Shown piece after piece: positions 3,566 to 10,680 of a DNA stretch of 45,723 nt. The DNA comes from Bacillus sp. AFS059628 (GTDB taxonomy: Bacteria; Bacillota; Bacilli; Bacillales; Bacillaceae_G). Positions within the stretch are counted from its first letter, which is position 1; each line of letters begins with the position of its first letter. The notes beneath the pieces are model-generated. The model was not told where the DNA came from and made no database searches. It worked only from the letters and a program-made list of their open reading frames with translations. Both the position numbers and the translations under genes were made by a program. The stretch spans positions 1 through 45,723 of the forward strand of contig NZ_NVEC01000110.1 of the NCBI RefSeq assembly GCF_002571225.1, given 5' to 3'.

Positions 3566-4333
3566 ATGAAAGCTGTTATTCTTGCAGGTGGATATGGAAC
3601 AAGGATTGGGGAAGAAACTCATTTAAAACCAAAACCTATGATTGAAATTGGGACAAAACCTATTCTATGGCACATTATGAGTTTGTATAGTTATTACGGC
3701 ATTACGGAGTTTATTATTTGCTTAGGCTATAAAGGATGTGCAATTAAAGAATTCTTTCTAAATTACAACTTACACATGTCCGATTTTACGATACATTTAA
3801 GTGACAATACAATTACGAACCACTCTCATCGCATTGAACCATGGAAAGTTACATTAATTGATACTGGTCTAAATACAGACACAGGTGGACGAGTTAAAAA
3901 AATACAGCATTACGTCGGGGATGAACCTTTCTGCCTCACTTATGGCGATGGATTAAGTAATGTAAATATAAAAGAACTCATTGCATTTCATAAAAAACAT
4001 GGAAAAATGGCAACTGTTACAGCCGTACAACCTCCTGGTAGATTCGGTTCTCTCGTATTAGATAAACAGTCTGTCACATCCTTTCAAGAGAAGCCACTCG
4101 GGGATGGCGGATGGGTTAACGGTGGATTTTTCGTTTTAAATCCTGATGTTTTCAATTACATTAGCGGAGATAAATCTGTTTTTGAAACAGAAACTTTAGT
4201 TCAGTTAGTAAACAAAAATGAACTAGCCGCATATCAACATTCTGGTTTTTGGCATCCGATGGATACATTGCGCGATAAAAATAAATTAGTCGAGCTATGG
4301 GAAAGTAATAACGCTCCGTGGAAGGTTTGGTAA
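3566..4333 (+). CDS. rfbF: Glucose-1-phosphate cytidylyltransferase
   Basis: A 255-residue nucleotidyltransferase, the normal length for RfbF. The N-terminal signature AGGYGTRIGEETHLKPKPM binds CTP. TYGDG (about 131-135) supplies the metal-binding aspartate, FQEKP follows at about 173, and WHPMDTLRDK near the C-terminus is typical of cytidylyltransferases. It converts CTP and glucose-1-phosphate to CDP-glucose, the first step of the pathway encoded by the next three genes. A strong SD (AGGAGG) lies 6 bases upstream of the ATG. The next gene starts two bases after the stop codon, so the two are translationally coupled. In B. cereus this four-gene operon has been shown biochemically to make CDP-cereose and CDP-cillose. 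Confidence 0.93.
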   Translation: MKAVILAGGYGTRIGEETHLKPKPMIEIGTKPILWHIMSLYSYYGITEFIICLGYKGCAIKEFFLNYNLHMSDFTIHLSDNTITNHSHRIEPWKVTLIDTGLNTDTGGRVKKIQHYVGDEPFCLTYGDGLSNVNIKELIAFHKKHGKMATVTAVQPPGRFGSLVLDKQSVTSFQEKPLGDGGWVNGGFFVLNPDVFNYISGDKSVFETETLVQLVNKNELAAYQHSGFWHPMDTLRDKNKLVELWESNNAPWKVW

Positions 4334-8375: not shown

Positions 8376-8726
8376 CTAATATTTTTGTAAGTTTTCCTTC
8401 GGTATCCAGCCATCCTCACCACCTGTTTTTTCACACCAAATCCATCCATTCAATTCTTCTAATCCAATCAATTTTTCTCCAATACTTACATTTAATTCTT
8501 TGGCAGTATATTGTTTCGTAATGATTCCTACATCCGTTGTATTTTTCATTATAATTTGCTCCGGAACCCAACCTTTTCGGTTATACTTCTCTTCATGACA
8601 AAACATCCAGTTATCCCAGTTTTCAGGACCAGTGTAACTTTCTATCATTTTCACTACATCCCCCTCTTCTAAAAAAATTGGATTCGGATAATTGCTAACA
8701 TGTGATTTTATAACAATATATTTCAT
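8376..8726 (-). CDS. Two-repeat SH3-like domain protein
   Basis: A 116-residue protein without signal peptide or membrane segment. It consists of two SH3-like units, about 1-58 (ending NWMFCHEEKYNRKGWVPEQII) and about 62-116 (ending WIWCEKTGGEDGWIPKENL). Each finishes with the W-x-C ... GW-[VI]-P pattern of bacterial variant SH3 domains. The start at 8726 is chosen over an in-frame TTG 12 bases upstream because GGAGGG lies 5 bases before this ATG. The upstream region is shared with the divergent EamA leader and contains a 27-bp perfect palindrome. The glycosyltransferase copy B follows about 10-40 bp downstream. The biochemical role is unknown. Confidence 0.75.
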   Translation of the reverse strand: MKYIVIKSHVSNYPNPIFLEEGDVVKMIESYTGPENWDNWMFCHEEKYNRKGWVPEQIIMKNTTDVGIITKQYTAKELNVSIGEKLIGLEELNGWIWCEKTGGEDGWIPKENLQKY

Positions 8727-8749
8727 AACACCCTCCAATAAACTGAAAA

Positions 8750-8776
8750 TTAAGTTATAATGTCATTATAACTTAA
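8750..8776. promoter_or_regulatory. 27-bp perfect palindrome between divergent genes
   Basis: Two 13-bp arms (TTAAGTTATAATG and its complement) flank a single central base. Each arm contains TATAAT, so the site may hold two overlapping divergent -10 elements, an operator, or both. I see no good -35 on either side at 17 bp. Confidence 0.5.
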
Positions 8777-8793
8777 GAAGGAGGAATGGACTC

Positions 8794-8844
8794 ATGTACT
8801 ACAACACTCCATTCGAAAACGATCAACCTGTAGGCCGTCTTTAA
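8794..8844 (+). CDS. 16-codon leader peptide upstream of the EamA transporter
   Basis: A short ORF encoding MYYNTPFENDQPVGRL, with AAGGAGG (8778-8784) 9 bases before its ATG. Its length, strong SD and position 87 bp upstream of the transporter match leader peptides of antibiotic-inducible genes. The last codons and the stop lie inside segment 1 of a four-segment hairpin system (see 8834-8923), so a ribosome paused near the end of the leader would change the downstream fold. I do not recognise the peptide. It is real only if the leader is translated; the pairing with the downstream SD is the main support. Confidence 0.6.
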   Translation: MYYNTPFENDQPVGRL

Positions 8845-8923
8845 ACTAAGGCGGGCATTCATATAACACATAACACTATGCCTCGTCTTAGGGAACTCAT
8901 AAAACCCTAAAAATAGACGGAGG
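8834..8923 (+). promoter_or_regulatory. Predicted erm-type translational attenuator of the EamA gene
   Basis: Four complementary segments are visible. Segment 1 (8834-8841, GCCGTCTT) pairs with segment 2 (8848-8856, AAGGCGGGC): 8 bp, one bulge, 6-nt loop. Segment 3 (8881-8888, CCTCGTCT) pairs with segment 4 (8915-8923, AGACGGAGG), which holds the transporter SD; the stem continues as TTAGG(G) with CCCTAA (8889-8893 with 8905-8909). The alternative 2:3 stem (8846-8858 with 8878-8891) has 13 bp and one bulge, and would free the SD. This is the logic of erm and cat leaders. The pairings are seen; the mechanism is inferred. Confidence 0.6.
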
Positions 8924-8931
8924 TACTTTAC

Positions 8932-9816
8932 ATGAAACAAACAATTTTAGGAGCTATATGTTTATCACTAGCAGCTAGTATATGGGGCGGTATGTATGTT
9001 GTTAGTAAATATGTACTTGACTTTATCTCACCGCTGACACTCGTTTGGCTACGCTTTATCATTGCTTTTGTTGTTTTATATGCAATTTTGAAAATAGCTG
9101 AGAAAAAGCAAGAGAAAAAAGTAACCATTCTTAAAAAAGATTGGCTCCTCTTCGCCTGGATTGGATTTATCGGATACTTCATTTCGATTACTTGTCAATT
9201 TATCGGAACAAAATTATCCGACGCTCATACAGGCTCTTTAGTCACATCAGCTACACCTGCATTTATGGTTATATTTGCAGCGATCATTTTAAAAGAAAAG
9301 CTAACCGCTCGTAGACTTCTATCTACTATCATAGCGACAATCGGTGTCATTATCGTCATTGGATGGGATATTGAAATTGGCTCCTATTTTATCGGTACAA
9401 TCATATTAGTTGGGGCCGCTATTACGTGGGCTTTACTATCTATTTATGTGAAGATTGCTTCAGCTCGATTTTCATCTTTAGTGATTACAACATACGCCAT
9501 ATTCTTTTCACTCTTTTTCATTACACCTTTTATGCTATGGGAACTACAATCAACCTCTATCGAAACAGTAAATACGTACGTAATATTAGGCGTAGTATAT
9601 TTAGGAGTCGTCTCAACAGCAGGTGCCTTTTTCCTTTGGAATAAAGGATTAGAATTAATGGACGCAAGCATTGGTTCCTTATTTTTCTTCTTCCAACCTA
9701 TCGTCGGATCGTTGCTTGGTTGGTTACTATTAAACGAAACATTGAGCAGCAACTTTTTTATTGGTGGTATTCTTATTATATGTAGTGTTTTTATTACTAC
9801 TTTTGAAAAGAAATGA
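8932..9816 (+). CDS. EamA-family (DMT superfamily) exporter
   Basis: A 294-residue protein with ten hydrophobic segments arranged as two EamA repeats (about 8-140 and 150-290). SIWGGMYVVSKY at the start and GAAITWALLSIYVKI at the start of the second half are the usual signatures. DMT proteins of this type export amino acids, metabolites or drugs across the cytoplasmic membrane; the substrate cannot be told from sequence. The SD GGAGG lies 8 bases upstream of the ATG. It can be masked by the predicted leader structure, so expression is likely controlled after transcription begins. A strong hairpin terminator follows. The attenuator suggests induction by something that slows ribosomes. Confidence 0.88.
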   Translation: MKQTILGAICLSLAASIWGGMYVVSKYVLDFISPLTLVWLRFIIAFVVLYAILKIAEKKQEKKVTILKKDWLLFAWIGFIGYFISITCQFIGTKLSDAHTGSLVTSATPAFMVIFAAIILKEKLTARRLLSTIIATIGVIIVIGWDIEIGSYFIGTIILVGAAITWALLSIYVKIASARFSSLVITTYAIFFSLFFITPFMLWELQSTSIETVNTYVILGVVYLGVVSTAGAFFLWNKGLELMDASIGSLFFFFQPIVGSLLGWLLLNETLSSNFFIGGILIICSVFITTFEKK

Positions 9817-9818
9817 AA

Positions 9819-9849
9819 AACAGGCAGAGACTAAGAATCTCTGCCTGTT
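9819..9849. terminator. Bidirectional intrinsic terminator
   Basis: A perfect 12-bp stem AACAGGCAGAGA / TCTCTGCCTGTT with a 7-nt loop sits between the convergent EamA and pentapeptide-repeat genes. A-rich and T-rich flanks occur on the respective sides, so it can serve both. Confidence 0.85.
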
Positions 9850-9858
9850 CTACATTCT

Positions 9859-10680
9859 TTACGCACTCCAATGCGATGGACGGGATAACATTTTCGGTAA
9901 TTTCGTATGCTTATCCCCTTTCGCTGCGTTAATTTGAACTTGCGTCAGAAAAATACTATTTGTAAAATCAGCCCCGCGAATATCTGCATCTCGTAAATCT
10001 GCTCCGATAAGATCTGCCCCTCTTAAATTTGCTCCATTTAAGTTAGCCGCAATTAAGTAAGCACCCCTTAAATTCGCTCCTTGCAAATCTTTCTTCTTCA
10101 AATTTGCCCCCATAAGGTCTGCTCCGCGGTGGCTCATTCGCTTCTTACGCGCGACATTCATTTCCTTCCAAACTAGCTCACTCGTTTCTAAAAGTAACAC
10201 ATTTACTTCCGCACGGTGTAATGGAATATTTACTTTCATTAACTCGTCCGCATTTAAATTTGAAAGACGCTCCGTCTCTTCAATCGCTTTACTTAGCTCT
10301 TTATGAATTGGCCGCGTCGCCTGTAAAAGAATCGCCTCATTCAAATACCAAAGCATTTCATGCAGCTGATGCATAACTGGAAAAGCATCGTACATTTTTC
10401 TCGCATGCTTAGCATCTTTCCGCCAATCAATCCCGTTGAATGTAACTTGCGAAATCTTCTGTCCAGCGCCGAAACACTCAAATACTGTGCAACCTTTATA
10501 ACCTTTTCCTCTAAGATTTTTATGTATGCTACATTTATAATCTGATTGTAAGTTAGAACATGGTTTCCCGCCATCTTTATTCACTGCAAAATCTACCGAT
10601 GCTGCGAATGGTAACGCCACGCAACATAAACCGAAGCATTTTTCGCAGTTTGCTTTTAAATGATCGTTATGATTAGTCAA
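9859..10680 (-). CDS. Pentapeptide-repeat protein with a cysteine-rich N-terminal domain
   Basis: About 273 residues. The N-terminal part is Cys-rich (CEKCFGLCC, then single cysteines in CSNL, CSIH, GCTVFEC), like the Zn/Fe-chelating YkgJ-type domain. The middle is helical. The C-terminal third (about 185-250) contains roughly 14 pentapeptide repeats of the A(D/N)LxG type (GADLMGANL, GANLRGAYL, GADLIGADL), predicted to form a right-handed beta-helix. I choose TTG at 10680 because AGGGGG lies 8 bases upstream; an in-frame TTG at 10725 lacks a good SD. Some pentapeptide proteins mimic DNA and protect gyrase from quinolones, but that function is not implied here. It is monocistronic, ending at the shared terminator. 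Confidence 0.8.
   Translation of the reverse strand: MTNHNDHLKANCEKCFGLCCVALPFAASVDFAVNKDGGKPCSNLQSDYKCSIHKNLRGKGYKGCTVFECFGAGQKISQVTFNGIDWRKDAKHARKMYDAFPVMHQLHEMLWYLNEAILLQATRPIHKELSKAIEETERLSNLNADELMKVNIPLHRAEVNVLLLETSELVWKEMNVARKKRMSHRGADLMGANLKKKDLQGANLRGAYLIAANLNGANLRGADLIGADLRDADIRGADFTNSIFLTQVQINAAKGDKHTKLPKMLSRPSHWSA

Follow-up and report, generated by a model that had tools for sequence, protein, structure and literature searches.

A conserved FEND(Q/V)P leader peptide and a predicted translational attenuator upstream of an EamA exporter gene in Bacillota

In contig NZ_NVEC01000110.1 of Bacillus sp. AFS059628 (positions 1 to 45,723 of the forward strand, called the window here), the gene of an EamA/DMT exporter is preceded by a short leader open reading frame (ORF) and by RNA segments that can pair in alternative ways, and the arrangement is very probably a translational attenuator, under which the exporter stays off until translation of the leader stalls. 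Its architecture, conservation, covariation and ribosome-occlusion geometry were computed here. The leader has a conserved peptide core, L-F-E-N-D-(Q/V)-P, which points to nascent-chain-dependent arrest, a point beyond an earlier note on this DNA made from the sequence alone. We give slightly better than even credence to the wider reading that FEND(Q/V)P leaders are an undescribed class of nascent-chain sensor for a small molecule, which may be the substrate of the exporter, and that they link a ribosome-toxic or surplus compound to an EamA exporter by a feedback that is old in Bacillota and borne by plasmids too. The parts of the unit are listed below, with the segments numbered in the four-segment manner used for erm attenuators.

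8778-8784, + strand: leader Shine-Dalgarno (SD) sequence AAGGAGG, read directly from the sequence.
8794-8844, + strand: leader ORF with ATG at 8794, 16 codons and TAA at 8842-8844, encoding MYYNTPFENDQPVGRL; read from the sequence, with the core conserved in homologous loci.
8812-8829, + strand: core codons F-E-N-D-Q-P, identified by conservation; the maximum of the occlusion scan falls here.
8827-8829, + strand: Pro codon, the predicted stall site (in the A or P site), from conservation and the occlusion scan.
8834-8841, + strand: segment 1, the final leader codons, pairing with segment 2; from the fold and duplex energies.
8846-8858, + strand: segment 2 (8848-8856 in helix 1:2, 8846-8858 in helix 2:3); from the fold and duplex energies.
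8878-8891, + strand: segment 3 (8881-8888 in helix 3:4), complementary to segments 2 and 4; from the fold and comparison.
8915-8923, + strand: segment 4, containing the exporter SD GGAGG at 8919-8923; from the fold and covariation.
8932-9816, + strand: EamA/DMT exporter of 294 amino acids, Pfam PF00892.

The earlier note had described a 16-codon leader with a strong SD, which is exact, and the window has at 8778-8844, as erm/cat-type systems do, a short leader ORF with its own SD upstream of the regulated gene. It had also claimed that helices 1:2 (8834-8841 with 8848-8856) and 3:4 (8881-8888 with 8915-8923) form together, with the leader stop codon in the 1:2 loop and the exporter SD hidden by 3:4. 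The minimum-energy fold of 8778-8935 contains both helices, the stop codon lies inside the loop, and 3:4, with one bulged base, covers GGAGG in silico. This fold has an energy of -37 kcal/mol against a shuffle mean of -26.3 kcal/mol (z -3.2), below all 200 dinucleotide shuffles. The competing helix 2:3 joins 8846-8858 to 8878-8891 through 13 base pairs with one bulge, and the duplex energies in the window are -12.4, -19.7 and -12.6 kcal/mol for 1:2, 2:3 and 3:4. Folding with and without the leader region, the check proposed in the note, replaced 1:2 and 3:4 by 2:3: RNA from 8844 to 8945 refolds to 2:3 with a z of -3.0, and 2 of 200 shuffles fold equally well. The claim that 2:3 exposes the SD stands as far as release from 3:4 is concerned, but part of the SD then enters weak local pairing. 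On switching, the mean unpaired probability of the SD in the window rises from 0.20 to 0.67, a change matched by 6 of 300 spacer shuffles.

In the 80 best-matching loci of homologous exporters we looked for short ORFs that carry the core and end 3-6 residues after it. The core was found upstream of 42 of the 80 exporters, in addition to the window, a total that includes the variant cores EKYRP (locus L004) and DNDVP (L078). A first leader scan had given 42 of 81 rows including the window, among them L001, which is spurious; L001, L018, L026 and L080 were assigned leaderless by hand, and a later scan gave no valid match in them. The hosts of the leader include Brevibacillus, Anoxybacillus, Heyndrickxia, Sporolactobacillus, Clostridium and a Peptococcaceae metagenome-assembled genome, and further Desulfotomaculum, Pelosinus, Sporomusa, Alicyclobacillus, Paenibacillus and Lysinibacillus. 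Leader length, with the start codon chosen by script, is 15-18 codons in 62 of 70 cases and ranges from 11 to 28. For residue counts a 66-row set was reduced to 63 separate leaders by removing L147, L152 and L173, duplicates of L007, L006 and L024; L019, from Heyndrickxia coagulans, and L022 belong to strains that are nearly identical. Among the 63 leaders, P occurs in 63, E in 62, D in 62, F in 58 and N in 55, with Q in 34 or V in 24 at the remaining position, although the search pattern demanded E/D, D/Y and P, so that only the conservation of L, F, N and Q/V is free of that choice. Synonymous codons vary freely across the 66 rows (AAT 30 times, AAC 28 times), and all four Pro codons are used. 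The distance from the proline to the stop codon is 4 codons in 38 of the 63 leaders and 3-6 in every one, a near-constant spacing that fits the downstream reach of a stalled ribosome. Directly after this proline, 57 of 63 leaders have V, A, S or T, perhaps owing to an A-site preference or a pairing constraint.

Helices were scored in 61 of the 63 leaders; L069 and L076 were excluded for their shorter design, and L174, in which the script detected no start codon, and L044 were also left out of helix scoring. Mean energies over the 61 loci were -15.5 (1:2), -19.7 (2:3) and -14.8 kcal/mol (3:4), compared with shuffle means of -9.5, -8.9 and -9.4 kcal/mol. Helices 1:2 and 3:4 together are stronger than 2:3 in all 61 loci, and 2:3 is stronger than 3:4 alone in 58 of them, the order of energies that a switch needs. 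Helix 2:3 lies beyond the 5th percentile of shuffles in 53 of 61 loci. Segments 2 and 4 vary jointly opposite the same segment 3 base, giving G-C-G, A-T-A and C-G-C triples in a set that still contained three duplicated rows. In the FENDVP set, 15 cells of 3:4 changed on both sides and none of 500 shuffles scored as high, the structure used being the consensus of the same 22 rows. The terminal leader codons of homologous loci differ in amino acid yet retain the pairing of segment 2. The Desulfosporosinus loci L069 (2935-3003) and L076 (2936-3003) have one hairpin in place of four segments; their leader ends 26-27 nucleotides upstream of the exporter and its final codons pair directly beside the SD, a form that would open only with a ribosome at the leader end.

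Ribosome occlusion was modelled by removing the RNA under the ribosome codon by codon, with the front edge 11 bases beyond the A-site codon, in 40 loci (of 42, 2 were set aside for want of an SD that the script could recognise at the annotated start). Mean SD accessibility was 0.17 in the full strand and 0.40, 0.47 and 0.40 with D, Q/V and P in the P site, so that the maximum corresponds to the conserved proline in the A site. On both sides of these core positions it was 0.13-0.27, and in spacer-shuffled controls it stayed flat at 0.30-0.36. The mean gain was 0.267, against -0.037 to 0.050 in 15 shuffle rounds, and a gain above 0.2 was seen in 23 of the 40 loci against a mean of 5.2 in the shuffles. 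The predicted stall site, taken from the positions of highest accessibility, thus coincides with the conserved peptide core, to which the energy model is blind. In silico the SD is sequestered by 3:4 in the uninduced fold and freed by the alternative 2:3 pairing once a ribosome covers segment 1, and the rise from 0.17 to 0.47 in the 40-locus mean agrees with the logic of the earlier note that a stalled leader ribosome favours 2:3.

From these results we infer the following course of events, in which the arrest, its dependence on the peptide and its inducer go beyond the computed geometry. At rest, 1:2 and 3:4 would form, and 3:4 is predicted, with support from comparison, to bury the exporter SD. 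The leader ribosome, with the nascent chain ...L-F-E-N-D-(Q/V)-P, would then be halted at the conserved proline by a small molecule, which may be a ribosome-binding drug or the very substrate of the exporter. The stalled ribosome would cover segment 1 and free segment 2, and the stronger 2:3 helix would displace 3:4 and allow translation of the exporter to start.

Several observations weigh against this mechanism. Taken singly, 1:2 and 3:4 reach the 5th percentile of shuffles in just 24 of 61 loci each. In the FENDQP set, for which the structure was set by the analyst, covariation of 3:4 is modest (5 cells, with 5 of 500 shuffles as high), and pairs changed on both sides are no commoner than in shuffles (220 of 500). 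In the occlusion model 17 of 40 loci fail to open clearly (by a gain over 0.2), and accessibility rises again, to 0.24 and 0.31, with the ribosome 8-9 codons past the proline and later segments covered. The 14 largest clusters of neighbouring genes give no hint of inducer or substrate. Finally, 38 of the 80 homologues have no recognisable leader, and exporters kept without leader or pairing, which the earlier note had named as evidence against its proposal, therefore do occur. With hand-chosen cut-offs, however, both helices are strong in 53 of 61 leader-bearing loci and in only 2 of the 31 leaderless loci (of 38) that could be scored; looser cut-offs leave both in 56 of 61 and 5 of 31. Leader and hairpins thus appear to be mostly lost together. 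The four-segment erm-like logic put forward in the note is supported by this comparison as well as by the single fold, since the unit recurs in many Bacillota with pairings that co-vary. Among the unscored leaderless loci, Clostridium ljungdahlii L016 (1167-3001) retains leader and hairpins 1.7 kb upstream of the exporter, with an IS605 OrfB-type gene (1720-2835) in between, unlike C. ragsdalei L014, where attenuator and exporter stand together; in L016 leader and exporter have been separated naturally.

It is unlikely, though the best placed of the alternatives, that the leader senses translation speed only, through hungry codons (for example, at low charged tRNA-Pro) or a slow-down, and that the peptide is inert. 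The best modelled stall, in which the A site holds the codon of the conserved proline, would suit such a sensor, but the residues L, F and N ahead of that proline are conserved without being required by the search, and the codons drift synonymously. Starvation attenuators carry repeated codons of the regulating amino acid, and the core here has no repeated residue. Since the leader has no single-codon run and export would be an odd answer to scarcity, a scarce amino acid, which the earlier note had offered as an inducer, looks less likely.

Control is most likely translational, because the 3:4 helix of the window comes without a + strand terminator-like site: it has no T-run, and no intrinsic terminator with a U-run before the exporter was found on the + strand in 8600-9900. 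In homologous loci 3:4 itself contains the SD (the terminator scan covers the window alone). Transcription attenuation through a terminator and antiterminator, as in vmlR, cplR and bmrCD, is in this light very improbable, even though cplR has similar alternative hairpins after a short upstream ORF, as described in PMC10201436. A shade less probable still is a short ORF that yields a functional small peptide beside incidental hairpins. It would explain the conserved core, but the final codons change residue and keep the pairing of segment 2, leader and hairpins are mostly lost together, and all leaders read in the leader-led searches precede EamA. A chance fold of the AT-rich spacer, to which the window's 6 of 300 matching shuffles might lend some colour, deserves almost no weight, being contradicted by a comparison in which the three helices return across the 61 scored loci, with 2:3 far past shuffles and with segments that co-vary.

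The spread of the proposed attenuator was followed by searches led by the leader itself. In these, 45 of 45 readable leaders were followed by an EamA gene; 10 of them repeat the 80-locus set and one was found twice, which leaves 34 new places. Covariance models were run under strict filters, and genomes without a match are not thereby proven leaderless. In 348 Bacilli they gave 40 places in 39 genomes (E ≤ 0.01), of which 10 weak ones lie outside the 30 loci examined; 21 of these loci have a leader with EamA and 9 have neither. One of the nine, L165, has a YENDQP short frame that sits within a 440-residue open frame and was not counted. Among 116 Clostridiaceae there were 14 places, 7 of them real leaders with EamA, and two largely overlapping 119-genome samples from the phyla of Pelosinus and Desulfotomaculum gave 3 distinct places, 2 of them real. 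In 198 genomes of the Paenibacillus order all 16 places stand before EamA, with a readable leader in 15. A motif pattern applied to 18 genomes gave 28 places, and the 14 examined comprised 3 leaders before EamA (L103, L104, L108) and 11 places that are not leaders, one of them L099, a 13-residue stretch between stops with no in-frame start codon; applied to 245 Clostridia genomes, it gave 34 places in 32 genomes, 30 with loci, and 1 real leader (L117). In the Clostridia search L123, L130 and L139 are short frames with the motif but no EamA downstream.

In a tree of 98 exporters (96 different), leaders fall on either side of the midpoint root, with 18 label changes against a mean of 39 after shuffling, a comparison in which near-copies add to the clustering of labels and several joins lie on long branches. 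The tree fits an old unit with repeated loss. Exporters on plasmids were found in 11 records, and 4 of the 5 examined carry the unit in its FENDVP form: two from Priestia, one from Bacillus badius and one from Niallia (L187, from Priestia megaterium, L188, L189 and L191; about 3880-4003). The fifth, from a Selenomonas plasmid, is without the unit. The Priestia unit, from motif to gene end, occurs on 8 plasmid records at 91.8-100% identity. No relative was found in viral contigs, and none in phages at E 1e-20. No B. cereus-group strain is named among the 80 best homologous loci, and no close match turned up in the plasmid collection.

Exporters under translated-leader control include cmlA and tet(L). 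The EamA unit is like these, and like bmrCD and mef/mel, in placing an exporter under a translated leader, and unlike them in that EamA/DMT is a different transporter family; we know of no peptide motif common to the FEND(Q/V)P leader and the leaders of bmrCD, mef/mel, cmlA and tet(L). TnaC and SpeFL are short conserved nascent chains that halt the ribosome on a small-molecule signal, tryptophan and ornithine respectively. The proposed small-molecule arrest by a short conserved chain resembles them in design. Mangano et al. in 2022 reportedly described a regulatory ORF sensing orthosomycins, a further case of context-specific stalling by a drug. In ermC/ermCL, a ribosome stalled in the leader changes the fold of the mRNA so that the SD of the following gene becomes accessible (PMC13410324, PMC10219788). 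The EamA unit shares the leader ORF and the stalled ribosome, here predicted, that frees a downstream SD, and differs in its core peptide, its exporter product and its wide spread in Bacillota. Erythromycin stalls the ribosome at the proline contexts XP and XPX, as stated in PMC13410324, and such proline-centred stalling fits the predicted stall site. The ABC exporter bmrCD (PMC5417439, PMC4191407) and mef/mel efflux (PMC4335068) are controlled via translated leaders that reportedly act through transcription, whereas the EamA unit is most likely translational.

The available part of a survey of B. cereus-group efflux (PMC5417439) has sections on MFS, ABC, RND, SMR and MATE transporters, lacks the term 'DMT', and its single mention of a leader peptide concerns bmrCD. 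Rfam 15 gave no gathering-score match over the element in the window, and in 7 homologous loci just a SAM riboswitch elsewhere in L002. No mention of the FEND(Q/V)P motif was found in searches of open-licence full texts, which is no proof of novelty, and neither a leader of an EamA gene nor an arrest peptide together with EamA was found there. The proposed arrest peptide of this attenuator is apparently undescribed.

The exporter has two EamA stretches (PF00892, E 9.5e-47), as expected of a two-domain EamA/DMT protein. Its six NCBIfam matches each fall below the curated cut-off, and no curated model naming a substrate was matched in NCBIfam or Pfam. Among solved structures only 5i20 was matched by sequence at E 0.01, and weakly (E 0.0025). 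One further feature is found shortly before the leader SD, in the stretch that separates the leader from the divergent SH3-domain gene:

8750-8776, no strand: AT-rich perfect palindrome of 27 bases with arms of 13 nucleotides and 1 nucleotide between them, TTAAGTTATAATG-T-CATTATAACTTAA.

The palindrome contains TATAAT on both strands. Because the other 65 rows have palindrome arms of at most 7 nucleotides upstream of the leader, it probably serves as an operator of local occurrence or as a shared promoter. A terminator-like hairpin of 16 pairs, scored on the - strand, lies at 9817-9851 between the exporter and a convergent pentapeptide-repeat gene. For the neighbour survey, ORFs of at least 90 amino acids within 3 kb of 80 loci were grouped into BLAST clusters, which mostly reflect synteny inside Exiguobacterium or Anoxybacillus. 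One mixed cluster consists of what we take to be ABC ATPases, and another pair is presumably AzlC/AzlD-like.

The number of known arrest peptides is small, and every one of them has revealed something that ribosomes can sense. In the proposed attenuator, the stall codon can be predicted from a short conserved motif in many harmless species, and a largely uncharacterised family of exporters becomes linked to a translational signal. The carriage of the unit on plasmids suggests a selectable benefit, and the identity of the inducer would point to the natural substrate of the exporter.
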